Shown here: positions 11,245 through 63,552 of the stretch, piece after piece
Layout: each line of letters begins with the position of its first letter
Numbering within the stretch: the first letter of the stretch is position 1
Origin: a virus
Strand: one strand, 5' to 3'
Length of the DNA stretch: 64,000 nt
Virus record (IMG/VR): IMGVR_UViG_3300027736_000043
Span: 1-64,000 of that record
Translations under genes and position numbers: made by a program
The notes under the pieces: model-generated
The model's input: the letters and a program-made list of their open reading frames with translations, nothing else
Told to the model about the DNA's origin: nothing
Database searches by the model: none

Positions 11245-12108
11245 TTATTGTAGTTGTGTTTCTCGTCGCCATTGGTTATTAAAATTGGTTCTTAGATCAT
11301 GTGTTCCACAAGCTGTTTGGCAGATTGTGTTGGGGGTTAAAGTTTTCCAAGTCACTTTTACTTGCTGTATATCTTCTATCACATTAAATTGTGATCCACC
11401 AATCCAACAACACGGACTCAATCGTCCTTGTGCATCTATATAAGCACTTTTTTCAGACAGCACATGACACCGTATAGCACCCACACCTGATATAGGTGGT
11501 TGCCAGTTTAGTGGTGACTGTAAAGTATTGGTAAATCCACGATTTGAAACTTTTGCACGGAACCAAGAGAAGCCCATGGCTCGAGCCAAAGATTCGCATT
11601 CTTCTACTTGATGTTGATTGTGTCGATACACCAACATGTCCCAATGTGCTGATCCTCCAGCAGAAATATAAGCATCAGCGTTGGCCATAAGTTTTGACCA
11701 ATCAACTCCGCGCCGATATGTAGTGTTGGTATCTTCCAATCCGTCAATGCTGAACACAACATAATCGAGTGGCTGGTTAAATATCTTTCCTAATTCATGC
11801 CACCAAAATGTGTTCTGTATAGCACCATTGGTATTCATACCCAATGTGATGTCTGGGTTAAGATGACGCAACCATTGATAGATATCCAAAGTGTTTTTAG
11901 CAGCAGCAGGATCACCGTAAGTACCACACATGAATGCTTTGTCAAGACCGGATATTACACGATCACTGAAATGTTTCTGTATTTGTGGAACTGTGAGATG
12001 GTGTTGTTGTTTTTTATTAAACAAAGGATCAGTTTCTCTGGCACACAATGGACATGCGGCTTGGCATACATCCGTGGGCTCTAAATGCAATACTTTTATT
12101 CTACGCAA
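11245..12108 (-). CDS. Radical SAM protein with C-terminal auxiliary Cys region (TTG start)
   Basis: 287 residues. The radical SAM core opens at once with LEPTDVCQAACPLCARE, the C-x3-C-x2-C cluster ligands. TYGDPAA takes the place of the usual GGEP motif, and YVVFSIDGLEDTNTTYRRG is a typical core strand. The C-terminus holds further Cys (PCCWIGGSQF, CQTACGTHDL) like a short SPASM/twitch auxiliary cluster. Such enzymes cleave S-adenosylmethionine to a 5'-deoxyadenosyl radical; the substrate is unknown. The only in-frame start is TTG at 12108, with TAG two codons upstream. It is part of the gp55-gp46 operon. SPASM-type peptide modification is the family default, not shown here. Confidence 0.8.
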   Translation of the reverse strand: MRRIKVLHLEPTDVCQAACPLCARETDPLFNKKQQHHLTVPQIQKHFSDRVISGLDKAFMCGTYGDPAAAKNTLDIYQWLRHLNPDITLGMNTNGAIQNTFWWHELGKIFNQPLDYVVFSIDGLEDTNTTYRRGVDWSKLMANADAYISAGGSAHWDMLVYRHNQHQVEECESLARAMGFSWFRAKVSNRGFTNTLQSPLNWQPPISGVGAIRCHVLSEKSAYIDAQGRLSPCCWIGGSQFNVIEDIQQVKVTWKTLTPNTICQTACGTHDLRTNFNNQWRRETQLQ

Positions 12109-12157
12109 TTTCTACATCCGACTATTTTCTCTAAACTCAACAAAATATAGTATTTTT

Positions 12158-12553: not shown

Positions 12554-12557
12554 TACT

Positions 12558-14081
12558 TTAATTTTGAGACATAGAGAATATTTTTTTTGCATTGTGATTT
12601 TTATACCATTCTAATTGTGTTTTTACTAACCAAATTTTTTGATTCAAATTATCAGTATCCTCACTGGTCATTTGAAGAGATTTTGCTAACTCACACAGTT
12701 CAATAAATCGATTGACCCGAACATCAAACGTATTTTTGGTATTAGACTTGCTAACCCACGAAAACTCAGTATACCCTTCAATATTAACTGTGTTGATCCC
12801 TAGATCTTTATACATCTGAGTATTGACCATTGGTGTATTCTGAAGCATTAAAAAAGTTCCTATAGGATCTATTTTTAATAAACCGTTACTTCTTGGGTGC
12901 CAATATTTTATTAAGTCAATAGTTTTTTGCCAGTCTTGATCAGTCTCTGTTGGATAGCCAGCAATTATATTCCAATTTTGTTCAATACCGTATTTGATCA
13001 ACATACCAGTTGTATAATCTATATCTTGATCAGTGCTGCCCTTGCCCATGTGATTACGTACAGATTCACTGCCACTCTCAAGACCAATTGAAACATTAGC
13101 ACAGCCAGCATCATACATAGACTTGAAATATCGTTCAGGCATATCTTTTTTGCTTCGAACAATAAATTGCCCTTCGTAGTTAATAACTCGAGGCAAATCA
13201 CTAGCCAGTATTTGATTCATTTCGTAAAATGGTTTCAACCCACCGTTCATTAGACTATCTGTAAACGAAAAAAATGTTACAGAATGTCTACGATAAAGTT
13301 CAATAATTTCTTTTGCCACAGTAGATCCACTTCGAAATCTATACCGACCCCATATTTTTCCTACGTCACAAAACGAGCAGTCTCGAACACAGCCTCTGCT
13401 GGCAGTTATTGAAAATGTCAGTCCAGCTGCTTGTGTTTTATCAGTCCTCCAATAACTTCGTTTGTTTTTAGGATACAAGTCAAAGTTATAATCTGAGTAG
13501 TCTGGAATAGGTAACTGTTCTAGCATTTCGTTGCTCAACTGTGGTTCAATTATCAAACCAGACAAATTGTTCTTTATAATTTTTGCCAAAGCATAATCGC
13601 CTTCGCCGAGTAACACACAGTCAGCTAATCCTGAATCCAACATCAAATCGTGCCATTTTTTTCCGTATTCAAATTGAATAATGTCAATGCCGTTGCCGCC
13701 AATGATGATTTTTATTTTATCAACAGATTTTAATCTAACAGTATAACATAGATCTTCAGTAAATCTCTGACTGTTTTGAGTCAAGCAACTGATAGCTAAA
13801 CAAGTTGGAAAAATTTCAATAATCTTTGTTGCATAACTATCTATCAATTTTGAATACCAATCAAATGCCTCAACAGAGACTTTTAACTCTGGCTGTTGCA
13901 TCCATGCAGTAATTTCTGAATAGTATTTGTTAGATTGATTTTCAAAATTAAACTCAGCTGATAGATCCCATGCTTGTGCAGATATCTGTTGTTGGCTAAC
14001 GCATGATTTGAGCAATGCCGGTGCCATAGATGGGCCAAGCGTATATGTAAATGGTGCAGTTACTATTAGAACATCTATCAT
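12558..14081 (-). CDS. B12-binding-domain-type (class B/BchE-like) radical SAM protein
   Basis: 507 residues. Residues 1-185 look like a Rossmann-type cobalamin-binding domain (MIDVLIVTAPFTYTLG, KIKIIIGGNGIDI, ADCVLLGEGDYALAKI) but lack the base-off D-x-H-x-x-G motif. The radical SAM core has SRGCVRDCSFCDVGKIWG (C-x3-C-x2-C, near residue 230), then FFSFTDSLMNGG, GCANVSIGLESGSESV and IIAGYPTETDQDW, all typical of the B12-radical SAM superfamily. The reaction might be methylation, methylthiolation or ring chemistry; the substrate is unknown. The gene follows gp46 directly, with a late-promoter-like AATAAATA overlapping the gp46 stop. Confidence 0.85.
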   Translation of the reverse strand: MIDVLIVTAPFTYTLGPSMAPALLKSCVSQQQISAQAWDLSAEFNFENQSNKYYSEITAWMQQPELKVSVEAFDWYSKLIDSYATKIIEIFPTCLAISCLTQNSQRFTEDLCYTVRLKSVDKIKIIIGGNGIDIIQFEYGKKWHDLMLDSGLADCVLLGEGDYALAKIIKNNLSGLIIEPQLSNEMLEQLPIPDYSDYNFDLYPKNKRSYWRTDKTQAAGLTFSITASRGCVRDCSFCDVGKIWGRYRFRSGSTVAKEIIELYRRHSVTFFSFTDSLMNGGLKPFYEMNQILASDLPRVINYEGQFIVRSKKDMPERYFKSMYDAGCANVSIGLESGSESVRNHMGKGSTDQDIDYTTGMLIKYGIEQNWNIIAGYPTETDQDWQKTIDLIKYWHPRSNGLLKIDPIGTFLMLQNTPMVNTQMYKDLGINTVNIEGYTEFSWVSKSNTKNTFDVRVNRFIELCELAKSLQMTSEDTDNLNQKIWLVKTQLEWYKNHNAKKIFSMSQN

Positions 14082-14094
14082 ATTATAATCTTTG

Positions 14095-14102: not shown

Positions 14103-15861
14103 GAATTTCTATGTCTGTATTGTAACTGGTAAATCCATTCTCTTTTATAACTTTGAGTATGTTTTCTACCCTACTGGTCAATTCATCTCTATGACTGACT
14201 AACCAAATGCTTTTGTGACGTTCACGGCTCATCTTCTTCAGTAAAGCCAATGCATTCTCTACACCTTGTGTGTCCAATCCCGAATCGATCATCTCGTCAA
14301 TAAACAAGATGTTGATGGGTTGATACAAACTTTCCCACACATCTCTGAAGGCCCAACTCATACTCAAGATCAATCGATTGCGCTCACCACGACTTAAATT
14401 GTCAAAGTCTAGTTCCCGGCCCAGTTCTTCAATGCTCACAGTGAGATCGTTTTGAAACTTTACAGTATGCGGCAAGCCAATACGATCAAGATAGTGTGTG
14501 AGCCTGCTGTTGAGATAGCTCAAGTTCTGATCAATGATCTTTTTACGCACAAATGAATCTTTGCTGGTCAACAGTTTGAGCAAAAACTCTTGATGTTCTT
14601 GTACTCGAGTAAATTCGTTCAAGGTATCATATGATACCACCTGCAAGGCTTGGTCGTTCATGTCTGTGATTTGTTCACTGTACGGATCTGTTTCTGCAGA
14701 TCTTGTGGCATGATCTTTTTTCAATGTATCCACAGTGTTTTTGTGATTCAATGCCTGTTCCAAACTGTCATAGAACACTGAGGGTGCTGTGCCTAACACA
14801 CCAAGTTCTCTAAGTTTATCCTGATGCTCTATACTCTGCGAGTCATTGGCCAACAATTGCAATGCAAGTTCTTGTAGAGTCTTTTCACGCTGTGCCTTTA
14901 CAGTGTCAAGACTGTTGTCGTGTATTTCTGTACCGCAAGCAAAACACTTGTGGCTGGCAATTTGCGTGAGATCTTTTTCAATCTGTACTTTTTGTTTTTG
15001 TAATTTTGTATCGTCTGAATCAATTTGTCGTATCCAACGATTAGCATCGTCAATGGACTTTTTACGCACATGAAATGTTTCAAGATCTCTGTGTGCTTGT
15101 ACCTCTGCTTCAATGTTGATGTGCTCAAGATCAGCAATGCCTTGTGCTAACGCAGCAACATCTTCTGTTTGTTTGCGGAACCACATGACTCGCCGTTTTT
15201 CTAAACTTTGAATTTGTTCTTCAATGCGTTTGTTGGCTTCTTGTACCGCACGTATGCGTAATTCTTCTGTTTGGATAGAATCTTTGGTTTCTCGATTGAG
15301 TTCTTTGATACGATCAGCACGTTCGCTTAATAAAGTGATACCCAGCAATTGTTCAATGATTGTACGTTGTTCGTTGGCTTTCAAACTCAAGAAAGGTGCT
15401 GTATAAGTGTTTAGCGCAACAATATGCTGAAACATATCGTGACTCATACCTAACACACGTTCTATAGCTTCTTGCGTTTCTCGACTGTCACCTTGTGCTT
15501 CGTCTTGTGCTGCTTGGTGTTCGTTGTTGACGTAGAATCTGAGCACGTTGGGTTTACGCCCACGTTCAATTCTGTAGTTCTGTCCACTCACACTGAAGTC
15601 TAAACTCACAAGCATGTGTTTGGCATTGGTCTTGTTCACAAGATTGTCTTTGCGGATGTTTGATAATGCCTGACCATACAATGCATAGCTTAGTGCATTG
15701 ATGATTGTGGTCTTACCGGTACCATTGCGACTGCCGTCACCACCCATGTCCAAGTTCTCACCCAGTACCAAGGTAAGGTCAGATCGATCAAAGTCAATAG
15801 CCTGTGTGGCATTGCCCACACTCATGAAGTTTTTAACAGTAAGATTTTTAATTTGGATCAT
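14098..15861 (-). CDS. 46: Recombination nuclease subunit gp46 (SbcC/Rad50-like)
   Basis: 587 residues, close to T4 gp46 (560). The Walker A segment is GSRNGTGKTTIINAL near residue 45. Long coiled-coil arms flank a zinc hook CFACG near residue 306. The ABC signature is LSRGERNRLILSMSWAF, and Walker B is INILFIDEMIDSGLD. With gp47 it forms the Mre11-Rad50-type complex that resects DNA ends for phage recombination-dependent replication. In T4, 47 and 46 are neighbours; here a radical SAM gene (15858-17342) separates them, coupled to both sides by 4-bp overlaps. Confidence 0.95.
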   Translation of the reverse strand: MIQIKNLTVKNFMSVGNATQAIDFDRSDLTLVLGENLDMGGDGSRNGTGKTTIINALSYALYGQALSNIRKDNLVNKTNAKHMLVSLDFSVSGQNYRIERGRKPNVLRFYVNNEHQAAQDEAQGDSRETQEAIERVLGMSHDMFQHIVALNTYTAPFLSLKANEQRTIIEQLLGITLLSERADRIKELNRETKDSIQTEELRIRAVQEANKRIEEQIQSLEKRRVMWFRKQTEDVAALAQGIADLEHINIEAEVQAHRDLETFHVRKKSIDDANRWIRQIDSDDTKLQKQKVQIEKDLTQIASHKCFACGTEIHDNSLDTVKAQREKTLQELALQLLANDSQSIEHQDKLRELGVLGTAPSVFYDSLEQALNHKNTVDTLKKDHATRSAETDPYSEQITDMNDQALQVVSYDTLNEFTRVQEHQEFLLKLLTSKDSFVRKKIIDQNLSYLNSRLTHYLDRIGLPHTVKFQNDLTVSIEELGRELDFDNLSRGERNRLILSMSWAFRDVWESLYQPINILFIDEMIDSGLDTQGVENALALLKKMSRERHKSIWLVSHRDELTSRVENILKVIKENGFTSYNTDIEIQ

Positions 15862-17342
15862 AAAGTCTTATTATACACATAACCCATGGCTTTTGCAACC
15901 TCAGGATGAGAGTCGGCAAAATTCTGATTTCGTAAGTGATCAAAATGTTTACAAAGTTTTGTAAATTCTTGACCATCTGAATCTGGCGCTGATTTAACAT
16001 AGTTTAAAATATTTTTCATCTCAGGCCACGGATGGTTTTGAAATTTGTTAACAATCAAATTCTTAGCACCTGCAGTGAGATGTTTAAGGTCAAAGCCAAT
16101 TGGATCAGTTATATACAACGGGTTTACCGTAAGTGACAATTTACTGGCCCACTGCAACAATTCATCGATATAAAAAACATTCATTATACTAATTGCGGGC
16201 ATGATACTAATTTTAATATTAGGCAATTTGAGATTGATCAGTTGATTGATGTTTGAATCAACTTGGTTCCATGATCCTCCACGCTCGAGTTCAAAACGAG
16301 CACCAATATTGTCAATGCTGAAATGTATATCCACATGTTTGAATTTTTTCCAGTAATCAACAAACTTTTCTGGATAAACTGATCCATTGCTGTTGTAATG
16401 CAATCTTATATTTTTAGCAGATCCTTGGGCAACAGCTGATTCGGCTAATTTTAATAAAGGTTTGATTAAAAATGGTTCACCACCGTACATGTCTATGTTT
16501 GTTAACGTGGGTAACAATTCTATAATTTCGTCAATAGTTTTAGAGTCAGATTCGGCCCAGTTGACTGTTTTTATAGTGATATTACTAAACTTTTTTGATT
16601 CTTCTGCAAACAGCGAACTAGCCTGCGGCCCACATATGCGACATTTAAAATTGCATGTATTGCCTGGTTTGATATCTAAACTTTTTATTGTAGGCAAATC
16701 TAAGTCAACAGTCAACAACTGTTTTTTCAATAAACTCAAATGATATTTTCTATTACTAATTAATCCTCGATCTTCCATATTCCAACAATGGTTACACCCA
16801 CTGGGACGGTTGCCGTCTAAAAAATTTTGACGTAACATAGACATTTTATCATTATAAAACGCATTGTTCAATGAAATATTATTAACATTGCCAATGTTTT
16901 GAGAAGAAACACAACACGGGCGTAATTCGCCTTGTGCTGAAACTTCAAGGTGCTGCCATGGCAATGGGCATAATGTATTTGGTACAAAAAAATTATCTTG
17001 TAATTTACTAGTCTCTTCAAATTCTATTTTTAAAGTTTGAAACAATATCGGATCTATAGATGTATTTTCTTCACGGACATCATGCGGACTGCAAATTAAC
17101 ACAAAAAATTTAGATACATCAATTAGATCAGCAGCCTGATACAAATGCTGTAACAATTTGTTTGATATAACATCAGTAGTATAAAAAACCAATCGATCGT
17201 TATTGTCAAACACCTCTTGATAGCATGATTGAAACTGTTTATATGCAGCAGTTGGTGTTACAGACAGATTTGCCAAATCAACAAAACATTTTAAAACATA
17301 CTGCTTGGAAAGTGCCTGCTTTAATTGTTCTATCGATATCAT
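15858..17342 (-). CDS. Radical SAM protein with N-terminal twitch-type motif, inserted between gp47 and gp46
   Basis: 494 residues. Residues 1-115 are an extra domain (RLVFYTTDVISNKLLQHLYQ, IDVSKFFVLICSPHD) also found in the protein at 60638-62344. Next is an auxiliary-cluster motif before the core: LCPLPWQHLEVSAQGELRPC with a second C, then GCNHCWNME. The core has PGNTCNFKCRICGPQASSLF (C-x3-C-x2-C, near residue 230), MYGGEPFL, and LHYNSNGS. The C-terminus ends with a helix HFDHLRNQNFADSHPEV shared with 60638 and 62341. This N-terminal-twitch family is known mainly by sequence; the substrate is unknown. It overlaps gp47 and gp46 by 4 bp each, so it is expressed with recombination genes. Confidence 0.88.
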   Translation of the reverse strand: MISIEQLKQALSKQYVLKCFVDLANLSVTPTAAYKQFQSCYQEVFDNNDRLVFYTTDVISNKLLQHLYQAADLIDVSKFFVLICSPHDVREENTSIDPILFQTLKIEFEETSKLQDNFFVPNTLCPLPWQHLEVSAQGELRPCCVSSQNIGNVNNISLNNAFYNDKMSMLRQNFLDGNRPSGCNHCWNMEDRGLISNRKYHLSLLKKQLLTVDLDLPTIKSLDIKPGNTCNFKCRICGPQASSLFAEESKKFSNITIKTVNWAESDSKTIDEIIELLPTLTNIDMYGGEPFLIKPLLKLAESAVAQGSAKNIRLHYNSNGSVYPEKFVDYWKKFKHVDIHFSIDNIGARFELERGGSWNQVDSNINQLINLKLPNIKISIMPAISIMNVFYIDELLQWASKLSLTVNPLYITDPIGFDLKHLTAGAKNLIVNKFQNHPWPEMKNILNYVKSAPDSDGQEFTKLCKHFDHLRNQNFADSHPEVAKAMGYVYNKTL

Positions 17343-52675: not shown

Positions 52676-52695
52676 AAAGGGCCAATTGGCCCTTT
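52676..52695 (+). terminator. Rho-independent-type terminator ending the late tail operon
   Basis: AAAGGGCC...GGCCCTTT is a perfect 20-bp palindrome (8-bp stem with AATT loop) 4 bp after the stop at 52672, followed by ACTTTTG. Its right arm overlaps the -35 element of the next promoter. Confidence 0.75.
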
Positions 52696-52721
52696 ACTTT
52701 TGATCACATATTGTGTATAAT
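52693..52721 (+). promoter_or_regulatory. Sigma70-like promoter of the accessory operon
   Basis: TTTACT at 52693-52698 and TATAAT at 52716-52721 are separated by 17 bp, the optimal spacing. The -10 is a perfect consensus. The predicted start about 7 bp downstream coincides with ATG 52728, so this message too may be leaderless. This differs from the TAAATA boxes of the structural genes and suggests earlier expression. Confidence 0.6.
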
Positions 52722-52727
52722 GTACAC

Positions 52728-53033: not shown

Positions 53034-53875
53034 CCACCGGTGCATTGATATTTGCATTTAACAATGAAAAAACAGACTACGTGGCCCTGGCAGCCTGGTC
53101 TGCAGCCAATATACACCGGCATCTTGAAATTCCAGTGGCAGTGGTCACAGACAACAAACATCATCCTGAACTGGCAGCATTTGATCAAGTTATCTTTGCT
53201 GAACCTTCTGCAGGCGGAACAAGGAATTTTGAAGATTATGCAGCCACAGTGACTTGGCACAATGCCGGTAGGCCTGATGCATACAATCTCACACCATGGG
53301 ATAATACTTTATTATTAGATGCAGACTACATAGTGGCCAGCGATCAATTGCGGCATACTTGCACTAATGGTAGAGATTTACAAGCCTACTCAAGATCAAC
53401 AGATGTGTGTAACAATCAAAATTTAGATCGGTTTGGTAATCCCCCAATGAATATGTTTTGGGCCACAGTAGTGCAATTTCGTAAATGTACTCGGGCACAA
53501 TATGTTTTTGATTGCATGAATATGATCAAACAAAATTGGCAACATTATAGAGATATCTATCACATTCACAGCAGCACATATCGCAATGACTACTCGCTAA
53601 GTATAGCAATAAACATTGTGAATGGTCATGTGCCGCACACCAACAACAATTCAATTGCTGGAGTATTAGTAAATGTGTATCCTAGCAATACGCTAACACA
53701 AATACATGAAGATTGTTATCGTGTGGCATGGACTGGTTCAAACGGAAAAAAACATCATGTGGAGTTAACAAACCAAGATCTACATGCCATGGGCAAAAGA
53801 GATTTAGAGGTCATAGTTGAAAATCATACAAGAACAAGGCTATCTAATAACAGCCTGGAACTCAGCCACAGTTGA
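53030..53875 (+). CDS. Glycosyltransferase-like protein (GT-A fold)
   Basis: 281 residues from ATG 53030 (ATGA overlap). The N-terminus GALIFAFNNEKTDYVALAAW, then LEIPVAVVTDN, is a Rossmann-like nucleotide-sugar fold, and NTLLLDADYIVASD has the D-x-D metal/nucleotide-sugar motif (DAD). Later segments FWATVVQFRKCTRAQYVFDC and the HSSTYRNDYSLSIAINIVNG region fit acceptor-side helices. Sugar donor and acceptor are unknown. It is the first of three such proteins in this operon. A longer frame starting at 52973 would overlap the upstream gene by 61 bp and is rejected. Confidence 0.7.
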   Translation: MTTGALIFAFNNEKTDYVALAAWSAANIHRHLEIPVAVVTDNKHHPELAAFDQVIFAEPSAGGTRNFEDYAATVTWHNAGRPDAYNLTPWDNTLLLDADYIVASDQLRHTCTNGRDLQAYSRSTDVCNNQNLDRFGNPPMNMFWATVVQFRKCTRAQYVFDCMNMIKQNWQHYRDIYHIHSSTYRNDYSLSIAINIVNGHVPHTNNNSIAGVLVNVYPSNTLTQIHEDCYRVAWTGSNGKKHHVELTNQDLHAMGKRDLEVIVENHTRTRLSNNSLELSHS

Positions 53876-54590
53876 TTATATAAACTGTGCAAGATCATTA
53901 GTTCAAACATTAAAACACTGGCATCCTGATGCCAAAGTGTGTTTGGTCACGGATAGAGATATTGTTGATCCGGTGTTTGATTACATACATGTGATCACAC
54001 GTACCAATCTTGACAATCCTTATGCTGATGATTGGCAAATATTCTATCAATCTCCATTTCGTGAAACTATCAAACTAGAAGCAGACATGTGGATTACCAG
54101 TTCAATTGATCACTGGTGGAATTTATTTCGCAAACGTGATCTAGTAATCAGCACAGGTTGTAGAGATTGGCAAGATCGACCCAGCACAGCAAGACACTAT
54201 CGTAAAATATTTGATGCAAACAATTTGCCCGATGTGTACAATGCCATCACATACTGGAGATTGAGTACAATAGCAAAAGAATTTTTTGATTTGGTACACA
54301 GTATATTTGAAAACTGGACTGAATATCGCAAGCTATTGAAATTTCCCGACGAAACGCCGTCAACAGATTTGGTCTATGCAATGGCAGCGCAGATCATTGG
54401 TCCCGAACTGGTAACATTGCCATTTACCACATATCCTAAAATAGTTCATATGAAACGACATCATGCTGGCACACAAACAGAAAATTGGAAAAAAGAACTA
54501 GTTTGGGAATGGGATCACGGTAGTTTACGTGTACAGACAGTAGCACAATCAGGAGCGTTTCATTATTATGTCAAACCAACCTTTAACTGA
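53817..54590 (+). CDS. Glycosyltransferase-like protein (TTG start)
   Basis: 257 residues. The only sensible start is TTG 53817, since TAG is the codon before it; AGAGG lies 6 bp upstream. It overlaps the previous gene by 59 bp. The fold resembles the previous protein: GYLITAWNSATVDYINCARS, DAKVCLVTDRD, and IKLEADMWITSSIDHWWNLF, where EAD replaces D-x-D. HMKRHHAG near the end may be the C-terminal metal-ligand His region. It is probably a GT-A enzyme acting with its neighbours; specificity unknown. Confidence 0.65.
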   Translation: MKIIQEQGYLITAWNSATVDYINCARSLVQTLKHWHPDAKVCLVTDRDIVDPVFDYIHVITRTNLDNPYADDWQIFYQSPFRETIKLEADMWITSSIDHWWNLFRKRDLVISTGCRDWQDRPSTARHYRKIFDANNLPDVYNAITYWRLSTIAKEFFDLVHSIFENWTEYRKLLKFPDETPSTDLVYAMAAQIIGPELVTLPFTTYPKIVHMKRHHAGTQTENWKKELVWEWDHGSLRVQTVAQSGAFHYYVKPTFN

Positions 54591-54918
54591 AGAAGAATTT
54601 TGGAGTATCTTGGCAGACATACCGGAGCCAAAACCAATTTTCTTTAGATTGTATCATGATGATCGTGGGCATGTATTATTCTACAGCATGGAGGATGTTC
54701 CAGGTACATACATCGAAATTGATGCTGAAACTTTTGCGTTATCACCTACAAATGTAAGAGTACGCAATGGCCAACTGGTTGAAGTTACATGGGTATCTAG
54801 TGAAAAACTCCAACCAATGGAAACTGGCACGTCTTGCTACCCCACTGACATAACTGTAGTGGTTTTGCAAAACGATCCGCACATTAAATGGAGCAAAAAA
54901 ACATATGAACAAAATTGA
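54568..54918 (+). CDS. Hypothetical small protein
   Basis: 116 residues, overlapping the previous gene by 23 bp and the next by 14 bp. An acidic helix (LTEEEFWSILADIPEPKPI) precedes a beta-rich body (FFRLYHDDRGHVLFYSMED, TYIEIDAETFALSPTNVRVR, EVTWVSSEKLQP). No catalytic motif is seen. It may be an accessory subunit of the flanking glycosyltransferases; this is context only. Confidence 0.6.
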   Translation: MSNQPLTEEEFWSILADIPEPKPIFFRLYHDDRGHVLFYSMEDVPGTYIEIDAETFALSPTNVRVRNGQLVEVTWVSSEKLQPMETGTSCYPTDITVVVLQNDPHIKWSKKTYEQN

Positions 54919-55828
54919 CACAGCAGATTTAGACTGCATTTATCTAACCTACGACGAACCACAACGAGAAGAATTCTGGGTCAAGATCAAAAACATGATT
55001 CCTTGGGCCAAACGTGTGGATGGCGTCAAAGGGTCAGACGCAGCACACAAAGCTGCCGCTGCTGCCAGTGATACCGAACGTTTTATTCTAGTAGACGGTG
55101 ATAACTTACCATCTGCAGATTTCTTCAACAAAACATTAGAATTCCCCACAGCTGAATACGAACAAGCAGTGTTTAGATGGCGTGCTAGAAATCATGTAAA
55201 TGGCCTAATGTATGGCAATGGAGGTATTAGTAGTTGGACACGTGAATTTGCAAATGCCATGCGTACACACGAAGCCACAGATGGGCGTACAGAAACACAA
55301 GTTGAGTTTTGTTTTGATCCGTTGTACTGGGCCATGCATGATTGCTACAGCACAACTTACCCAGCGCAGTCACCGTTTCATGCATGGCGTGCAGGATTCC
55401 GAGAAGGTGTAAAGATGTGCCTAAACAAAGGTGCCCGACCCACAGTAGAAGAATTTAAAAATCAAGTGCTAAGAAATCTTGATCACCTGACCATATGGCA
55501 TAACATTGGATCTGACGTAGAAAACGGAGAATGGTGTATGGCCGGCGCAAGGCAAGGCACATACATGACCATGCTGACCAACTGGGACTATAAACTAGTA
55601 CAAGACTTTGATGCACTGGCTGAAATTTGGGCTACAGTAAAAGATGGACAACCAAGAATACTGAGCAATCAGTTGGGTCCAGAGATTGGAACACAGTTGG
55701 ATCTGCCAATGGCCATATTGGAGTCAGAGCAAAGTGCATTCTTCAAATATCACTATCGATCAAACTGGCACAATCGTGGTGCTATGGTTCGGGAGATGGA
55801 TGTAATACGTCAGCAAGAAGGTTGGTAA
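54905..55828 (+). CDS. Glycosyltransferase-like protein (GT2-type, DGDN motif)
   Basis: 307 residues. CIYLTYDEPQREEFWVKIKN is the opening strand-helix, and RFILVDGDNLPSADFFNKTL has the GT2-like D-x-D element (DGD). GLMYGNGGISSWTREFANAM recalls the acceptor-site loop of GT2 enzymes. The C-terminus contains NLDHLTIWHNIGSDVENGEW. Similar proteins occur in phage genomes and LPS clusters. It overlaps the sulfotransferase start (TAATG). Confidence 0.65.
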   Translation: MNKIDTADLDCIYLTYDEPQREEFWVKIKNMIPWAKRVDGVKGSDAAHKAAAAASDTERFILVDGDNLPSADFFNKTLEFPTAEYEQAVFRWRARNHVNGLMYGNGGISSWTREFANAMRTHEATDGRTETQVEFCFDPLYWAMHDCYSTTYPAQSPFHAWRAGFREGVKMCLNKGARPTVEEFKNQVLRNLDHLTIWHNIGSDVENGEWCMAGARQGTYMTMLTNWDYKLVQDFDALAEIWATVKDGQPRILSNQLGPEIGTQLDLPMAILESEQSAFFKYHYRSNWHNRGAMVREMDVIRQQEGW

Positions 55829-56466
55829 TGTATAAAATTATTACTGACTATGCCGGCCAAGAGAATAAAAATATTTTAATTATTGGATCTCCAAGATCGG
55901 GTACTCATGCATTGTCTACTGAACTTTCTAATTTCAGACACGGGAAAAATCTTGGAGAAATCTGTATGGTAGGGTATTGTACTAATTTTTGGGACGACAT
56001 TGATAAGTTATCTAGCAGTGCTAGATTAACCACAGCGCAAATTGTTCAGATGAGTCCAAAATTAACATTAGCTGAAAATGTAGATAAGATTAAACAAAAT
56101 AATATTATTGTTAATATTCGACGTCGAGACAAAGTTGCACAATTTGCCAGCTGGATTTATTTCAGAGTATCAGATCCAACTGGACTTTACGGGTGGCATA
56201 ATCATACAGTTAACAAAACAAAAATCAAACCAGATACTATTACAGCAACAGAGCATGACATCACTCAGTTTAAGTTAGAACAAATGTTAGATGATTATTT
56301 TTTACCTACTTTTAATTTGTGCTATGAAGATCTTACATTTACACAAACCACATATAAGAAAAATGAATTTGCATTTCCTCTGCAGCAAATATTTAAAAAT
56401 CTTGATTATGTAAAACAACAATTGGAATCTTGGCAGTACTCCTCAGAGCATTTTGGTAATGAATAA
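55828..56466 (+). CDS. Stf0-like sulfotransferase
   Basis: 212 residues from ATG 55828; a longer frame from 55627 overlaps the upstream gene by 200 bp and is rejected. NILIIGSPRSGTHALSTELS is the 5'-phosphosulfate loop (P-R-S-G-T), and VNIRRRDKVAQFASWIYFRV matches the 3'-phosphate-binding R-R-x-D-K-x-x-Q-x-x-S helix of Stf0-type enzymes. The family transfers sulfate from PAPS to carbohydrate hydroxyls. The substrate is unknown, but the neighbours suggest a glycan made or altered by the adjacent glycosyltransferases. It overlaps the next radical SAM gene by 8 bp. Confidence 0.8.
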   Translation: MYKIITDYAGQENKNILIIGSPRSGTHALSTELSNFRHGKNLGEICMVGYCTNFWDDIDKLSSSARLTTAQIVQMSPKLTLAENVDKIKQNNIIVNIRRRDKVAQFASWIYFRVSDPTGLYGWHNHTVNKTKIKPDTITATEHDITQFKLEQMLDDYFLPTFNLCYEDLTFTQTTYKKNEFAFPLQQIFKNLDYVKQQLESWQYSSEHFGNE

Positions 56467-57832
56467 CAAAAGTCAATTCTTAAGTTCGGCTGAACAAATG
56501 GCAGAAAATCTAGGTCCTGCTCTTTGTTTAGCCAAATGGAAACAAGTCAGTTTGCATTTGCCCACCGGGTTAAATAACAGTTGTTATCACCCACCTTTGC
56601 ACTCTATATCCGTTGAAGATATTGGTCGCAATCCAGCAGCACTACACAATACAGATCATAAAAAACAACAACGTAAGTTGATGTTGGCAGGCAAACGTCC
56701 GGCAGAGTGTCAGTATTGTTGGAACATGGAGGATCTAGGTAAACTCAGCGATCGACATTATAGATCAGGCGAGCCCTGGGCAGCCATAGATTTTGAAAAG
56801 ATAAAAAACTCAACTGGAGATGAACAAGATGTCGTACCGTCGTACGTGGAAGTCAATTTTAACAATGCCTGCAATCTTAAATGCAGCTATTGCAGCCCGC
56901 AGTTCAGCTCTAGCTGGCAACAAGAATCTGAACGTCATGGGGCATTTCCTACTTTGGTTCCTCATAACGCTCCTGAGCATTTTAGCGGCCATCGCAAGCC
57001 TATCCCTGCCCGTGATCACAACCCTTATGTAGAAGCATTTTGGGCCTGGTGGCCCAGTCTATATCCTGAACTCCGGCACTTCCGCATGACCGGCGGTGAG
57101 CCCTTGATGGATAAGAACACCTGTCGAGTGTTTGACTATGTATTAGCTCACCCAAAAAACGATCTGCACTTGGCAGTAACTTCAAACTTCAGTGTAGAGC
57201 CTGAGCTGTCTGACAAATACTTTGATTATGTAAAACGCCTATGCGATACTGATATTGAACACTTTATGCAGTATGTTAGTCTTGATTCGGGTATAGGACC
57301 GCAAGCAGAATACATCCGGCATGGATTGAATTTTGAACGATTGCAGAACAATGTAGAAACATATCTTCAAGACATTCCATATCGTAACAGTCTCACTTTT
57401 ATTGTGACCATGAACAATCTTTCAGTCACAGGGTTCTTGCCATTGATGAAATGGATTTTAGATCTGCGCCGCAGACATAGTAAAACATATCAACGTGTGT
57501 GGTTTGATACTCCTGTACTTAGACAACCTGCATGGCAAAGTCTACAAACACTGCCTGAGAGTTATGCTGCAAAACTAGAACAAGCACGGAACTTTATGTT
57601 GGAGAATTTAGAAACAGAGTCTGACTTGTTTCACGGATTTAAAGATTACGAAGTGCAACGCCTTGAGCGTGACATAGCCTGGATGCGATCAATGACAAAT
57701 GTAAATACCCAGACTCTAAGTGACTTTTATAGATTTTTTAACGAACATGATCGTAGACGAGGAACTGACTTTGAAAAGACATTTCCTGAAATGATCTCAT
57801 GGTGGAAACAATGTGAATACCATGCAAGATAA
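56459..57832 (+). CDS. N-twitch radical SAM protein, sub-type B
   Basis: 457 residues from ATG 56459. The N-terminal auxiliary motif is LCLAKWKQVSLHLPTG, then SCYHPPLHSI, then ECQYCWNME; the usual CC is replaced by C plus two His. The core has NNACNLKCSYCSPQFSSSW (C-x3-C-x2-C) and MTGGEPLMDKNT, followed by TSNFSVEP. The C-terminus ends with D-R-R-R-G-T-D-F-x-x-x-F-P, shared with 59310. The two sub-type B proteins are clear paralogues (NPAALHNT in both). The product and substrate are unknown. Confidence 0.88.
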   Translation: MNNKSQFLSSAEQMAENLGPALCLAKWKQVSLHLPTGLNNSCYHPPLHSISVEDIGRNPAALHNTDHKKQQRKLMLAGKRPAECQYCWNMEDLGKLSDRHYRSGEPWAAIDFEKIKNSTGDEQDVVPSYVEVNFNNACNLKCSYCSPQFSSSWQQESERHGAFPTLVPHNAPEHFSGHRKPIPARDHNPYVEAFWAWWPSLYPELRHFRMTGGEPLMDKNTCRVFDYVLAHPKNDLHLAVTSNFSVEPELSDKYFDYVKRLCDTDIEHFMQYVSLDSGIGPQAEYIRHGLNFERLQNNVETYLQDIPYRNSLTFIVTMNNLSVTGFLPLMKWILDLRRRHSKTYQRVWFDTPVLRQPAWQSLQTLPESYAAKLEQARNFMLENLETESDLFHGFKDYEVQRLERDIAWMRSMTNVNTQTLSDFYRFFNEHDRRRGTDFEKTFPEMISWWKQCEYHAR

Positions 57833-58208
57833 CCAAATAAGTATTGCCATGAATATTATATTTCCTATCATTGAGTTAATTGACCGATTGGCTATCGCAG
57901 AAATAAAGTTTTTAAAAACACAACTTAACCAACCAGAAGTTGATTGGTACAAACAACAGTTTGACAAATATAATTTTTCTAGTATTACATTACAGTATGA
58001 AGAATTGAAAGACATACACTTAAAAATATGGAATTTAGAATCAGACATCAGAATGGGAATGGAACATAAATTAGGTCTTGAAGAAGTAGGACTACGAGCA
58101 TTGGCCATACGCGACTGGAACCATAAACGTGTTGCATTAAAAAATCAAATTGCAGAAAAATTACATTGTAATGTAAGAGAAATTAAAAAAGATCACGCAA
58201 GTGAATAA
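57822..58208 (+). CDS. DUF6165-like small protein
   Basis: 128 residues from ATG 57822, overlapping the upstream stop by 11 bp. IIFPIIELIDRLAIAEIKFL, then QYEELKDIHLKIWNLESDIR, then ALAIRDWNHKRVALKNQIAE, matches the DUF6165 pattern (E-L-I-D-x-x-x-I-x-E-I-K, I-W-x-x-E-x-x-I-R). Family members occur beside glycosyltransferases in bacterial polysaccharide loci; function unknown. Predicted all-helical. Confidence 0.6.
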   Translation: MQDNQISIAMNIIFPIIELIDRLAIAEIKFLKTQLNQPEVDWYKQQFDKYNFSSITLQYEELKDIHLKIWNLESDIRMGMEHKLGLEEVGLRALAIRDWNHKRVALKNQIAEKLHCNVREIKKDHASE

Positions 58209-58213: not shown

Positions 58214-59347
58214 ATGATAGGTAATCACCGGATCATTGTAGATGAATGGGCCGAAGTCTGGGATCTTCTTAAACCTCATGCCGACGGCAGTTTTTGGCGC
58301 TGGAGCGATTTAACTCTTGATCCAGAAGCTGTATATATTGTTGGGCGTGTGGTGCTCAAAGAGAACTGGTATGCTATCACCGATTGGGCGCATCAACATC
58401 CAGGCAAAGTAGTATTTTCTAATCCTGCTGAAGGATCGCAGACTATACTATTACAACTAAATCGATTGATGATTTCTGAACAGGTAAAATCTGGCGAAAT
58501 ATTGTTGTTGACATCCGGCGATCTTGAATCAGGATGGGACTATTGCAAAACTGATTGCTACTTTTCTAACATAGTAGAGTATCTTGAAAACATCAGCGCA
58601 CACGAATCGTGGCCGCAGGTGTATCACAAAAAAAACAAGCCTTATGACTTCTTGTTCTTGAACGGACGATTAAGACCACATCGCAAATATATAATAGACC
58701 AATTACGCCAACAAAAATTACTAGATCGAGCATTGTGGACTAATTTAGGCGACAGTGTAGAAATGTCTTGGACTAGTACATTACTAACTAATTCTAACGA
58801 ACCTGTAAAATTATTGCCCGAACAGTATGAAATACCTCGCGCTATACCTAACATGATAGAATTACCAACTGGATTTGTCAAACATCACTTGTTTGGTAAC
58901 ACCTGGGGTGACGCTATAGTCAATCCTGCGGCGTATGTGGACACATCATTTTCATTGGTAACTGAAACTATATTTGATTATCCGCATACATTCCGCACAG
59001 AAAAAATTTGGAAACCCATGATCATGTGCCATCCATTTGTGGTCGCAGCCAATCGTGGCTATTACCGAGACTTACACAATGCAGGATTTCGAACATTTGG
59101 TGACCTAGTTGATGAATCATTTGACCAGATAGATGATCCTACTGATCGTGCTAACCGTGTGGTTGCAGTTGTTAAAGATATATGCTATAATGGTGCAGAG
59201 GCTTTCTTGCAAGCTGCCAGAAGTACATGTAAATACAATTATCAGCAGCTTCGTGACCATAACACACAACAACGAGCTGAGCTTCCGGTAAAATTGGCAC
59301 AATATATCAATGAACGATCTAGAATTTCGACAGCAAGTATTAGATAA
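58214..59347 (+). CDS. GT-B/exostosin-like glycosyltransferase candidate
   Basis: 377 residues. Notable segments are YDFLFLNGRLRPHRKYIIDQ near residue 145, then FSLVTETIFDYPHTFRTEKI near 255 and WKPMIMCHPFVVAANRGYYR, followed by GFRTFGDLVDESFDQIDDPT. The E-x-x-F-D-Y-P...F-R-T-E-K-I-W-K-P block is like the donor-binding half of GT-B enzymes (fucosyltransferase/exostosin type: S-T-E-K-x-x-x-P). It is common as an unannotated protein in aquatic T4-like phages. The end overlaps the next gene by 38 bp. Confidence 0.6.
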   Translation: MIGNHRIIVDEWAEVWDLLKPHADGSFWRWSDLTLDPEAVYIVGRVVLKENWYAITDWAHQHPGKVVFSNPAEGSQTILLQLNRLMISEQVKSGEILLLTSGDLESGWDYCKTDCYFSNIVEYLENISAHESWPQVYHKKNKPYDFLFLNGRLRPHRKYIIDQLRQQKLLDRALWTNLGDSVEMSWTSTLLTNSNEPVKLLPEQYEIPRAIPNMIELPTGFVKHHLFGNTWGDAIVNPAAYVDTSFSLVTETIFDYPHTFRTEKIWKPMIMCHPFVVAANRGYYRDLHNAGFRTFGDLVDESFDQIDDPTDRANRVVAVVKDICYNGAEAFLQAARSTCKYNYQQLRDHNTQQRAELPVKLAQYINERSRISTASIR

Positions 59348-60641
59348 AAAAAGCAAAAGTTTCTGTGCAGCCAAATGGTACAATGCTACCATATGGTTAG
59401 GCAGCGGCATGACTACCAGTTGCCACCATCCTCCAGCACATGCCATAAATGTAGATGATATCAAACACAATCCTGCAGCATTGCATAACACTACCAAAAA
59501 GAAATTCGAACGTGATCAAATGCAGCATGGTGATCGACCAACGGGATGTGAATATTGTTGGAAGATTGAAGATATGGGTAGCGATGCCATAAGTGACCGT
59601 GTATACAAGAGTAAAATTTATCCTATAGAGGCATTGAATGAAGCATTTGAAACTCCTGCAGCTAATGACATTAGCTTACGAACCCTTGAAATTGCATTTG
59701 ACCGCACTTGTCAATTTGCTTGTAGCTATTGTAACCCTGCTTTTAGTAGCACTTGGGTTAACGATATACGAAAGAATGGACCTTATAACGGACTTGTTAG
59801 TGACGGTCGGAACCATTTTACTCACACTCACGATAGCAGCCAACTTTATAAATTCGGTCAAACTAATCCGTATGTGGAAGCATTCTTCCAATGGTGGGAA
59901 ACAGACCTCCATCGAACACTACAAGAACTAAGGATCACTGGTGGTGAACCATTGATGAGTGGCGAGACTTGGAAGCTGATTGGTTGGTTCCGAACCAATC
60001 CGGGTCGCAGCCAAACACGACTGGCCATCAATTCAAATCTAGGCACAGCAGTAGACTTAGATCGATTGCTAGACAGCATTGCAGGATTAGAAGTGGACAT
60101 ATACACATCAAACGAAAGCATAGGTCTACAAGCCGAATACATCAGAGATGGACTTGTATGGGATGACTGGGCCAACAATGTAGAACGATTGTTAGACAGC
60201 GGAAAATTTCGTAGCATACACATAATGAACACCATTAATGCGCTGTGCCTGGACACATTGGATCAGTTCTTAGAATGCATAATGAACTGGAAACTGGAAT
60301 ACGGTCGTGATGCTGTTAGTTTTACATTGAACATTTTACGATTTCCCAGTTTTCAATCTCCGCTGGTATTGCCTGATCATCTGCGTATGGTATATCGCCA
60401 ACGTCTGATCACATGGCTAGAGCACTGGTCTGACAGTGAATTTTTGCATGAACATGAACTCAACCATGTTCAACGTCTAATAGACTATTTGGACATTGTC
60501 AAGACACCGCACTCCGAAGCATTTGATCGGCCTCGGTTGTTAAACGACTTCAAACAATTCTATACTCAATACGATCAACGTCGTGGCAAAGACTTTGGTC
60601 TAGCATTTCCCACACTAAAACCCTGGTATGACTCACTATGA
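59310..60641 (+). CDS. N-twitch radical SAM protein, sub-type B (paralogue)
   Basis: 443 residues. Motifs match 56459: FCAAKWYNATIWLGSG, SCHHPPAHAI, GCEYCWKIED, then the core FDRTCQFACSYCNPAFSSTW (C-x3-C-x2-C), ITGGEPLMSGETW and AINSNLGT. The C-terminus has Y-D-Q-R-R-G-K-D-F-x-x-x-F-P. The start overlaps the previous gene by 38 bp; the N-terminus aligns with 56459, supporting this ATG. Its stop overlaps the next start by 4 bp. It may act with 56459 as a pair on similar substrates. Confidence 0.88.
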   Translation: MNDLEFRQQVLDKKSKSFCAAKWYNATIWLGSGMTTSCHHPPAHAINVDDIKHNPAALHNTTKKKFERDQMQHGDRPTGCEYCWKIEDMGSDAISDRVYKSKIYPIEALNEAFETPAANDISLRTLEIAFDRTCQFACSYCNPAFSSTWVNDIRKNGPYNGLVSDGRNHFTHTHDSSQLYKFGQTNPYVEAFFQWWETDLHRTLQELRITGGEPLMSGETWKLIGWFRTNPGRSQTRLAINSNLGTAVDLDRLLDSIAGLEVDIYTSNESIGLQAEYIRDGLVWDDWANNVERLLDSGKFRSIHIMNTINALCLDTLDQFLECIMNWKLEYGRDAVSFTLNILRFPSFQSPLVLPDHLRMVYRQRLITWLEHWSDSEFLHEHELNHVQRLIDYLDIVKTPHSEAFDRPRLLNDFKQFYTQYDQRRGKDFGLAFPTLKPWYDSL

Positions 60642-62344
60642 CATTGGAAGAAAAAATAATAGAATTAAAATCTCGTTACGATGTGTTGGCTGTAATTGAT
60701 CTTGATCCGTGGCACGACTTGCATGAACATGATAAAAAATCATGGATGAGAGAAACACTTGCACCTATACACCGAGACCCGTATCTTGATAATCAACGTA
60801 TTTTGTTCACAAGCTCACAAGGCGATGTGTACGCAGATGACCACAGTCCAGCAGGACAGTTGCTAACACAACTACAACGTAGATTAAACGAAATCGATAT
60901 ATCCAATTTTTTTGTTATCTTGCTGACTAACGACACCACCATGAGAGATGCATATCTTGCTCACTATCAAACATTTTCTGAAGATCCAGTTCCGATAACT
61001 GTCGAAGTGTATGCCAACAAGATCGCCAAACGTCGCACACAAGATAAAAAATCAACAGCAGGCAGTTATCAATATAAGAATCTAGATCCATTGAAGATTG
61101 ATATTAAGGATCTCACTGAGCAAGAACAATTTTTATTAACAAAAAGTTCTACGTTTTGTATGTATCCGTGGATACATTTCCATGCTTACCCTACTGGCTC
61201 GGCATATCCATGCTGCATGGCAGATATGCAGTTTCCCATTGGTGATATGAGAAAAAATACCATAAAAGAAATATGGAATCAAGCACCCATGACAGAAATA
61301 CGCAGACAAATGCTAAATGAACAACCAGTGTCGGCTTGCAATAGATGCTATGAACAAGAATCAATTGGAGTTGTTAGTGGAAGAATGAGTGCTAATAAAC
61401 ATCACGGACATCTTATTGACCGTACACACGAAACTAAACCTGATGGCACATTGGATCGATTTGAATTGACCTACTGGGATATAAGATTTTCAAACCTCTG
61501 TAATCTCAGTTGCCGTAGTTGCGGCCATATATTCTCAAGTTCGTGGTATCAAGATCAAGCCAAACTAGCAGGACCTGAATGGAAAAAAACACACAAAGTA
61601 TTGAATTATGCTGGTAGATTTGAAACTGATGCATGGGATCAGCTGGTAGAACATATTGAGCATGTGGAACAGATTTATTTTGCCGGCGGCGAACCATTAC
61701 TAATGGAAGAACACTATAAGATTCTTGACGAATTAGTTCAACAGAAAAAGTTTAATGTGAGATTGATTTACAATACCAATTTTACACACACACATCTCAA
61801 AGATAGAAGTGTGTTTGAATATTGGAAATTATTTGATTCAGTCAGCATAGGTGCCAGTCTCGACGGATCAGGACCTCATGGTGAATACATCCGTAAAGGA
61901 ACACAGTGGAATAAGATAGAACAAAATCGTCATGACATGATGCAGATTTGTCCAGATGTAGATTTTTATATTTCGCCTACTTTGAGCATAATGAATGCCT
62001 GGCACTTGCCGGACTTTCATCGCGATTGGGTTGCTCGCGGTTTTATAAAACCACAAGATCTCAATGTTAATATTCTACAAGATCCGCCGCACTACAGAAT
62101 TGATATTGCACCAATGAAATATAAACAACGATTGAGAATAAAATATCAAGAACACATAGAATGGTTAAAGAATCAAGATCCACTAGAGCGAGCCAGCGAA
62201 GGATTTAAATCAGCTATTAATTTTATGATGGCGTCAGACAACACACATCTCATTGACACATTCTGGCGTAAAACACACGAACTTGATGCTATACGGAATG
62301 AAAAACTATTAGATACAATTCCCGAACTTGAAGCGTTAACATGA
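60638..62344 (+). CDS. N-twitch radical SAM protein, sub-type A, with extra N-terminal domain
   Basis: 568 residues. Residues 1-155 are an extra domain (VLAVIDLDPWHDLHEHD, RILFTSSQGD, LTQLQRRLNEIDISNFFVIL) similar to the start of the 15858 protein. The auxiliary motif FCMYPWIHFHAYPTGSAYPC with a second C, then ACNRCYEQE, precedes the core SNLCNLSCRSCGHIFSSSW, IYFAGGEPLLMEEHY and IYNTNFTH. The C-terminus (THELDAIRNEKLLDTIPE) matches 15858 and 62341. The extra domain looks Rossmann-like (hydrophobic strands with D) and may bind the substrate or a partner. Confidence 0.88.
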   Translation: MTLEEKIIELKSRYDVLAVIDLDPWHDLHEHDKKSWMRETLAPIHRDPYLDNQRILFTSSQGDVYADDHSPAGQLLTQLQRRLNEIDISNFFVILLTNDTTMRDAYLAHYQTFSEDPVPITVEVYANKIAKRRTQDKKSTAGSYQYKNLDPLKIDIKDLTEQEQFLLTKSSTFCMYPWIHFHAYPTGSAYPCCMADMQFPIGDMRKNTIKEIWNQAPMTEIRRQMLNEQPVSACNRCYEQESIGVVSGRMSANKHHGHLIDRTHETKPDGTLDRFELTYWDIRFSNLCNLSCRSCGHIFSSSWYQDQAKLAGPEWKKTHKVLNYAGRFETDAWDQLVEHIEHVEQIYFAGGEPLLMEEHYKILDELVQQKKFNVRLIYNTNFTHTHLKDRSVFEYWKLFDSVSIGASLDGSGPHGEYIRKGTQWNKIEQNRHDMMQICPDVDFYISPTLSIMNAWHLPDFHRDWVARGFIKPQDLNVNILQDPPHYRIDIAPMKYKQRLRIKYQEHIEWLKNQDPLERASEGFKSAINFMMASDNTHLIDTFWRKTHELDAIRNEKLLDTIPELEALT

Positions 62345-63552
62345 AAATACCACATGACAAATTCTGTGTACTACCCTGGATTAGTATAGAAGCAAGTCCA
62401 ATTGGAACAGTACGGCCATGTTGTTTAGCTGATGACGAAATTGTAGACAACAACGGTGAAAAATTTCAATTGGCCACAGCTGACTTTGCTGATATACAAA
62501 ACAGCAATCACATGCGTGATTTGCGTGAAGATTTTTTAGCAGGAAAAAAACCTCAAACATGTCGTAAATGTTGGAATGAAGAACGATCAGGCCGCACAAG
62601 TAAACGTATGCATACACTGGATCGTCTTAAACATGTTCTTGACGAAGAGCATTGGACCAGCGATGCTAAATCATTAATGTTTCTGGATTTAAAACTGGGT
62701 AACATTTGTAATCTCAAATGCAGAATATGTGGGTCCTGGTCAAGTTCTCAATTTGCAAGCGAAGAAATTGCTTTTTTACCGCGCGAAGAACAAAAGAGTT
62801 CGCATGCTTACCAGATGTTACGTGCTGGAGCATGGCCAAAAGAAAATACACAGTTCTGGACTCAGATTGATTCAGTGTTGTCTGACATACGCTACATTGA
62901 ATTCACTGGCGGAGAGCCTTTTATGATTGAACAACATTTTGACATGTTGCAAGGTATTGTAGATCGTGGTATTGCACATCAAGTTGAAATACACTACAAC
63001 ACCAATGGCACACACTGGCCTGATCAAGGTCCGGATATTTGGAAACATTTTAAAACAGTAGAAGTGGCATTTAGTATAGACGATGTGGGTACTAGATTTG
63101 ATTATCAACGCACCAACGCAGACTGGGCAGTGGTCCTAGACAACATTACAAGTTTTCAATACTTGAAAGATCAAATGCCCAACTTACAATTGCAATGTTG
63201 TTCAACTGTGAACATATTCAATGTGCGTTACCTCGATGAGTTGGCTTGGTGGGCAGCATTGCAACGGTTTGACTTTGTGTATTGGAACATGATGCATGAC
63301 GCATGGTATTTTAGCATAGCCACTTTGCCAGACACAGCAAAAACACAAATTATCGCACACTTGGAATCAGCTGACATACCTGCTGAGTACAAACAAGAGT
63401 TTAACCGTATAATAGATTTCATGCGTAACGGAGCGTCTACTGATGGGTTTATGACTCGGATGAAGATTGCAGATCTAGATAGAAAACGCAACCAAGACTT
63501 GCGAGCAGTGGCCCCAGAATTTGCACAATTAATAGAATACACAGGCCCATGA
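62341..63552 (+). CDS. N-twitch radical SAM protein, sub-type A (compact)
   Basis: 403 residues, coupled to the previous gene by a 4-bp overlap. It lacks the extra N-terminal domain and opens with the auxiliary motif FCVLPWISIEASPIGTVRPC and a second C, then CRKCWNEERSG. The core is KLGNICNLKCRICGSWSSSQ, IEFTGGEPFMIEQHF and IHYNTNGTHWP. The C-terminus has ADLDRKRNQDLRAVAPEFA. It is the closest relative in the window of 15858. Its stop overlaps the next start by 4 bp. Confidence 0.9.
   Translation: MKIPHDKFCVLPWISIEASPIGTVRPCCLADDEIVDNNGEKFQLATADFADIQNSNHMRDLREDFLAGKKPQTCRKCWNEERSGRTSKRMHTLDRLKHVLDEEHWTSDAKSLMFLDLKLGNICNLKCRICGSWSSSQFASEEIAFLPREEQKSSHAYQMLRAGAWPKENTQFWTQIDSVLSDIRYIEFTGGEPFMIEQHFDMLQGIVDRGIAHQVEIHYNTNGTHWPDQGPDIWKHFKTVEVAFSIDDVGTRFDYQRTNADWAVVLDNITSFQYLKDQMPNLQLQCCSTVNIFNVRYLDELAWWAALQRFDFVYWNMMHDAWYFSIATLPDTAKTQIIAHLESADIPAEYKQEFNRIIDFMRNGASTDGFMTRMKIADLDRKRNQDLRAVAPEFAQLIEYTGP

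Follow-up and report, generated by a model that had tools for sequence, protein, structure and literature searches.

The record IMGVR_UViG_3300027736_000043 of IMG/VR measures 65,902 bases, and positions 1 to 64,000 of it constitute the stretch analyzed here (64,000 nucleotides; hereafter the window). As its portal gene (1507–3285, minus strand) is nearest to those of Phosso, Atu_ph07 and PA5oct, jumbo phages of 287–490 kb, the record probably represents only part of a jumbo T4-like phage genome. A preliminary description of this DNA reported seven genes for radical S-adenosylmethionine (SAM) enzymes with CX3CX2C cores, five of them with an auxiliary cysteine (Cys) motif ahead of the core in a layout known by sequence as N-terminal-twitch radical SAM. 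All seven were found at the positions claimed, each with its CX3CX2C motif, and the layout corresponds to a named family, NCBIfam NF033640 (N_Twi_rSAM, twitch domain-containing radical SAM protein), a full-length model with a curated cut-off of 170 bits. Run as the description had proposed, this profile is passed by all five proteins with the upstream motif (hereafter N-twitch enzymes), in which a GGEP motif is invariant, and separates them from the products of the genes at 11245 and 12558, neither of which reaches the cut-off. The proteins encoded at 11245, 12558 and 15858 match the general radical SAM family PF04055 above its cut-off, and the matches of the other four fall below it, though each of these passes NF033640; the Pfam SPASM family is matched above cut-off in three window proteins. 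Fourteen control genomes contained zero members above the NF033640 cut-off. The core motif itself is unspecific, since it also occurs in two open reading frames (ORFs) on the plus strand, at 362–1219 and 20878–21183, that were rejected as shadow ORFs, since they lie within other genes or on the strand opposite to them, and the claim therefore rests on profiles and conservation. Given the NF033640 scores and the complete conservation of the Cys residues in 77 sequences, a chance origin is excluded.

Four of the N-twitch genes form an array on the plus strand. Group A lies at 56459–57832 (327 bits), where the ATG at 56459 named in the preliminary description is preferred as the start over the TTG at 56453 of the mechanically called ORF. 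It is followed by group B at 59310–60641 (288.3 bits), group C at 60638–62344 (405.8 bits; distinguished by an N-terminal extension of about 165 residues), and group D at 62341–63552 (338.4 bits), which has a minimal layout. A sixth N-twitch gene (186.6 bits), at approximately 65242–65902, lies just beyond the window and is truncated where the contig stops, such that the actual array extends from 56459 to 65902. The remaining member, at 15858–17342 on the minus strand (304.8 bits), stands apart between gp46-like and gp47-like genes (neighbors phrog_77 and phrog_100), in the same region as the genes at 11245 and 12558. BLAST finds the N-terminal extension of the group C enzyme in the 15858 product as well; a suspicion, formed by eye, that this domain also occurs in the glycosyltransferase-like protein between A and B was dropped, as BLAST links the radical SAM extensions only. 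In a tree of 316 proteins, A, B, C and D fall into separate groups with syntenic partners, found in 35–56 loci for A to C and in about 30 for D. The clade of A (support 94) comprises 57 sequences drawn from 53 loci, that of B (support 98) 36 from 35 loci and that of C (support 35) 62 from 56 loci; A and B are thus well supported, D moderately and C poorly. The four array enzymes and the sixth are ordered, old paralogs, co-oriented and overlapping, and occur together with glycosyltransferases. Because the paralogs are both old and ordered, they are best read as catalyzing non-redundant steps. The earlier suggestion that the density of these genes reflects an elaborate modification pathway accordingly survives for an ordered orthologous array within a cassette of glycosyltransferases and sugar enzymes; the seven genes as a whole are not one pathway.

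The domains of these enzymes are arranged in a permuted order. SPASM and twitch domains have been described as C-terminal to the radical SAM core (PMC9012708), whereas the domain precedes the core in all NF033640 members examined. Four Cys residues of the N-terminal domain (C9, C28, C74 and C77) and three of the core (C123, C127 and C130) are invariant in 77 divergent relatives with a mean identity of approximately 20%, and the twitch motif CX9-15GX4C-gap-CX2C is present, reading C9-x12-G22-x4-C27(C28)...C74-x2-C77 in the enzyme at 62341. When a profile of the N-twitch family was searched against the PDB, its first 80 positions aligned with residues 183–261 of BtrN, the C-terminal auxiliary domain of that enzyme (E 1.9e-8), while its C-terminal part matched radical SAM cores. 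The N-terminal domain profile alone had BtrN as its sole PDB match (E 9e-5), with the four cluster Cys residues in register. It also aligns by hhalign (94.7%, E 5.7e-8) with the C-terminus of the window's own radical SAM protein encoded at 11245–12108 on the minus strand, a PF04055 member with its twitch in the conventional position. Alignment over all four Cys residues with the BtrN C-terminal twitch shows by homology that the domain order of the N-twitch enzymes is permuted, a four-Cys twitch like that of BtrN having shifted from the C-terminal end to the N-terminal end, and the N-terminal-twitch layout of the preliminary description is upheld at this level. BtrN (2-deoxy-scyllo-inosamine dehydrogenase; PDB 4M7T) oxidizes an aminocyclitol and has an auxiliary cluster with four Cys ligands (PMC9012708); it shares with the N-twitch enzymes the homologous twitch domain and a radical SAM core, but its twitch follows the core, and the N-twitch core matches other radical SAM entries better than BtrN. 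The AlphaFold2 model of the group D enzyme is confident throughout (pLDDT 95.4, pTM 0.92), and the BFVD holds many uncultured phage proteins of the same fold (TM up to 0.84). A structural search of the PDB for the permuted fold at full length returned core-driven matches only, with large root-mean-square deviations, as is expected for a permutation. A search of the accessible literature found no account of an “N-terminal SPASM” in radical SAM enzymes. A second case of permuted order was noticed in another radical SAM family (f11), with a GDP-type core, in which the SPASM domain precedes the core in one member (residues 47–111; L052:8153-9358) and follows it in another (residues 236–316; L083:8953-9936).

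The genes surrounding the array, all on the plus strand, form a cassette that recurs in relatives in the order f14-f6-f3 (tail-fiber-like), f4, f1, f1, f8, f0, radical SAM A, f2, B, C, D and further enzymes, where the f-numbers denote protein families. In the window, f6 (47964–51662) encodes a tail-fiber-like protein of 1232 residues whose C-terminus matches phrog_22593, a family of unknown function, and f3 (51677–52672) a putative tail-fiber or appendage protein with no family match. The cassette proper begins with the small conserved gene f4 (52728–53033 from its ATG; the ORF was listed from a GTG at 52713), known from 38 loci, and continues with two GT8/glycogenin-like glycosyltransferase genes of family f1 (52973–53875 and 53817–54590; both belong to a profile, A5, that matches glycogenin with E 6e-7) and the small conserved gene f8 (54568–54918; 24 loci). 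Directly upstream of the array lies f0 (54905–55828), a GT-A-like glycosyltransferase with a VDGD motif, found in 57 radical SAM loci, whose family has weak GT2 similarity (a member matches PF00535 at E 3.8e-4, just below the cut-off). Between f0 and A, 55828–56466 encodes a P-loop protein with a GSPRSGT motif visible by eye; Pfam and PDB searches gave no support to its assignment as a sulfotransferase. A and B are separated by a small protein with a weak, non-significant resemblance to DUF4254/DUF6165 (57813–58208; Pfam E 0.05–0.1) and by f2 (58214–59347), a probable GT-B glycosyltransferase (AlphaFold2 pLDDT 83.6; best Foldseek matches SenB and alpha-1,3-fucosyltransferase, E > 1e-3). The array is followed by a P-loop-like protein with no family match (63549–63998, continuing to record position 64256). 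This last protein resembles, by eye, a domain of about 205 residues, beginning FYPG(A/S)GGNRY, that is fused to the N-terminus of an N-twitch enzyme in two relatives (L182:12715-14664 and L184:12728-14668).

The f0, f1 and f2 glycosyltransferase-like families dominate the neighborhoods of the N-twitch genes, and the association also holds in the other direction, in that 76 of 79 loci anchored on f0 contain N-twitch enzymes and, of the three that do not, two stop shortly after f0. In these same 79 loci f6 is present in 75, f3 holds its position in 74, f4 is present in 75 and f8 in 67. In locus L065 the two are fused, with a single ORF of 981 residues encoding both an f0-type glycosyltransferase and an N-twitch enzyme (BLASTP E 3e-19 to the window f0 and 1e-19 to the window radical SAM A). 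More variable partners of the cassette include a NodU-type carbamoyltransferase, a DegT aminotransferase, a nucleoside diphosphate (NDP)-sugar dehydrogenase, an NAD-dependent epimerase and additional radical SAM enzymes. With tail fibers and glycosyltransferases in a variable island of the structural region, the locus has the composition of a host recognition cluster.

Transcription signals divide this region into two parts. Separating f3 from f4 is a perfect hairpin that ends in a T-rich tail and resembles an intrinsic terminator (52676–52695, plus strand), and a terminator precedes f4 in 31 of 75 relatives (0.7 in shuffled sequences). Next comes a sigma70-type promoter, TTTACT-17-TATAAT (52693–52721, plus strand; 10 of 12 matches), which ends six bases before the f4 ATG and is present in 35 of 75 relatives (3.5 in shuffles). 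Neither element is enriched upstream of the other cassette genes. Upstream of f6, on the other hand, the late-type promoter element TATAAATA occupies 47931–47938 on the plus strand, some 26 bases short of the gene start at 47964. The window holds two exact copies of it against 4.1 expected; its count is not enriched, and only its position before f6 is informative. The element ATAAATA precedes f6 in 70 of 84 relatives (mean 6.3, maximum 32, for permuted 7-mers) and none of 297 N-twitch genes. A single late operon read through the tail fiber from 47931 was considered and rejected in view of the conserved terminator and sigma70-type promoter before f4. Given these elements, the cassette is probably transcribed independently, by the RNA polymerase of the host and its housekeeping sigma factor. 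This points to a role inside or at the surface of the host cell more than to one in virion assembly, without proving the timing. The six bases between the −10 box and the f4 ATG (52716–52728), a spacing that is similar in relatives, may mean that the first cassette mRNA is leaderless.

A survey of other phages, which the preliminary description had called for, showed that uncultured T4-like phages commonly carry N-twitch arrays. Our scan of IMG/VR yielded at least 302 relatives, and 80 loci of at most about 22 kb each were retained, typically with three to seven N-twitch genes and at most eight. Among the matches listed, whole records contain up to 21 such genes (346,856 bases) or 19 (155,922 bases), and the seven radical SAM genes of the window are thus not an extreme number. 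A search of 50,697 phage records with the 60638 protein gave three matches only, and so the system is presently seen mainly in uncultured phages. Among cultured phages, Vibrio phage K566 carries a separate N-twitch clade interleaved with two GT8 genes (PF01501, E 2.5e-12 and 8e-8), along with a weakly GT4-like gene and, nearby, a gene annotated as PagP. Bacteria contain the family as well: viral and bacterial members are interleaved in a tree of 281 leaves, with 36 changes, which implies repeated transfers. Some genomes of the Bdellovibrionota hold up to 33 N-twitch genes, and two metagenome-assembled genomes (MAGs) of the Bdellovibrionia (L125 and L128), one of which is the genome with 33, have eight in 13.5 kb of bacterial contig. 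The commonest neighbor in bacterial loci is a carbamoyltransferase, near 13 of 66, even though these 13 genomes have no more than 18 copies between them in approximately 48 Mb, and genes for sugar epimerase, NDP-sugar dehydrogenase and glycosyltransferase are also nearby. These counts exclude nine bacterial or archaeal MAG contigs (L091, L092, L093, L116, L119, L120, L134, L155 and L160) that are phage sequence within GTDB genomes, as shown by their phage cassette (tail fiber, f4, f1) or phage neighbors.

The reading we favor, at a probability of roughly one half, is that the region at 52.7–65.9 kb is a phage glycan-modification island. A sugar or glycan is more likely than not the class of substrate; we favor sugar C-H chemistry chiefly because the auxiliary domain is homologous to that of BtrN and has Cys at every ligand position, and because of the glycosyltransferase fusion and the neighboring genes. 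In such a scheme, the CX3CX2C cluster would cleave SAM to a 5′-deoxyadenosyl radical, which would abstract hydrogen from a sugar C-H bond, and the auxiliary cluster, with all four of its ligands Cys as in BtrN, would accept or relay the substrate electron. Dehydrogenation or epimerization would follow, giving a keto or epimerized sugar, with each radical SAM paralog acting on a different position or sugar and the GT8, GT-A and GT-B enzymes assembling or extending the glycan. If the substrate is indeed a sugar or glycan, the host surface is slightly favored as the site, because the cassette is driven by a host-type promoter; a glycan made on or for the surface of the infected host could change its receptors and exclude competing phages. 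A fuller picture, which we offer tentatively and hold to be rather doubtful as a whole, is of an assembly line of 4–21 permuted-twitch radical SAM enzymes and dedicated glycosyltransferases in uncultured T4-like jumbo phages that, under a host-type promoter, would coat the infected cell with a glycan bearing several radical-installed C-H modifications unknown from cellular polysaccharides.

Several observations weigh against this reading. The fold assignments of f2 and f0 as glycosyltransferases are individually weak, and the sigma70 promoter is detected in about half of relatives (the 35 of 75 above), some of which have other elements. In Foldseek comparisons, the nearest full-length folds are not confined to sugar enzymes and include the SPASM enzymes CteB, SkfB and anSME, which act on peptides, and viperin. 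In KVP40-type Vibrio phages, divergent members adjoin genes for a QueC-like protein and a nicotinamide phosphoribosyltransferase, and annotation shows no glycosyltransferase in these neighborhoods; a link with glycans is thus not general in the family. The substrate and the chemistry, moreover, are both inferred.

The main alternative, which we consider unlikely, retains the glycan chemistry but places it on tail fibers or other virion proteins, where it could alter host range or shield the adhesin. The position of the cassette behind the tail-fiber-like genes f6-f3 in nearly all relatives is what one would expect of virion decoration, and a host recognition cluster already in print brings together tail fibers, GT8 enzymes and radical SAM cassettes (PMC7029224). 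Against this stand the terminator and sigma70-type promoter that split the cassette from the late-promoter tail-fiber unit, as well as the bacterial homologs, which accompany genes of surface-polysaccharide type without phage fibers. Less likely again is that the N-twitch enzymes are maturases of proteins or peptides, like most SPASM/twitch enzymes. Sactisynthases and anSME are among the nearest full-length folds, and the B12-type radical SAM enzyme encoded at 12558–14081 on the minus strand, which has no N-terminal twitch, is related to PhpK and to C-methyltransferases of ribosomally synthesized and post-translationally modified peptides (TIGR04479, E 4.3e-28; TIGR03975, E 4.4e-26; both below cut-off). 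However, the arrays leave no room for precursor peptides, which makes peptide chemistry less likely: 323 of 356 same-strand gaps within them are at most 10 bp (median −8), and the remainder contain no conserved small ORF. The auxiliary domain, furthermore, has its only PDB match in BtrN, and the constant partners of the N-twitch genes are glycosyltransferases. We regard as improbable a role in nucleotide or DNA hypermodification by radical SAM enzymes and glycosyltransferases, as in the glucosylated DNA of T4 or in 7-deazaguanine pathways; the QueC-like gene beside the KVP40 relatives and weak viperin- or QueE-like matches of the core point in that direction, but the array shows no gene for a hydroxymethylase, a kinase or 7-deazaguanine synthesis, the partners are of NDP-sugar and GT8 families, and the site lies behind tail fibers. 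That the four N-terminal Cys residues bind no cluster (or zinc) and that the copies are decaying, functionless duplicates is scarcely credible, given the invariance of these residues at so low a mean identity, the SPASM matches above cut-off and the alignment with the cluster Cys residues of BtrN, and the open frames of long-separated orthologs.

Parts of the glycan-modification island have precedents. The N_Twi_rSAM family name is established, and NF033640 covers the five window proteins and the sixth above cut-off over the full model; it names a layout without a substrate, and the ordered multi-paralog arrays with GT8 and GT-A enzymes, the orthology groups and the promoter are not part of it. 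Radical SAM cassettes in phage host recognition clusters are likewise known. The pelagimyophage cluster (Zaragoza-Solas et al., 2020; PMC7029224) resembles the present locus in belonging to T4-like phages and in forming a variable island behind tail fibers with GT8 and radical SAM cassettes, and its glycosyltransferases have been put forward as modifiers of the host O-chain. In the portions of that account available to us, the radical SAM cassettes receive passing mention, and permutation, paralog orthology, promoter structure and glycosyltransferase fusion are absent; the window phage, in addition, is of a jumbo T4-like lineage. Radical SAM and glycosyltransferase genes have also been noted in Tasman Sea viromes (PMC7150976). 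Vibrio phages K566/K567 and the KVP40 group bring the N-twitch architecture into cultured T4-like phages, in K566 with GT8 interleaving, but they represent a separate clade, and the KVP40 copies are far weaker members without annotated glycosyltransferase neighbors. The apparently new elements are the permutation established by homology, the ordered array of orthologs, the fusion with a glycosyltransferase, the promoter insulated by a terminator, and a parallel instance in a Vibrio phage that is in culture. Should the glycan reading hold, the radical SAM enzymes of phages would rank among the densest sets seen, and serial radical steps on glycans would be a phage strategy. NF033640, named for its layout only, gains a testable class of substrate, sugars, and a cultured system in Vibrio phage K566/K567. 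The family further offers a natural domain-permutation experiment, in which one may ask whether an auxiliary cluster delivered from the N-terminus is equivalent to one delivered from the C-terminus.

Two other features of the window deserve brief mention. Adjoining the radical SAM gene of conventional domain order at 11245, the gene at 10749–11177 (minus strand) appears by eye to encode a GIY-YIG endonuclease-like protein (GFVYLITNNLSGRKYIGKK). Finally, a single open frame of 5046 residues occupies 32024–47164, and its first 825 residues match virion structural and baseplate wedge/tail-fiber connector families.

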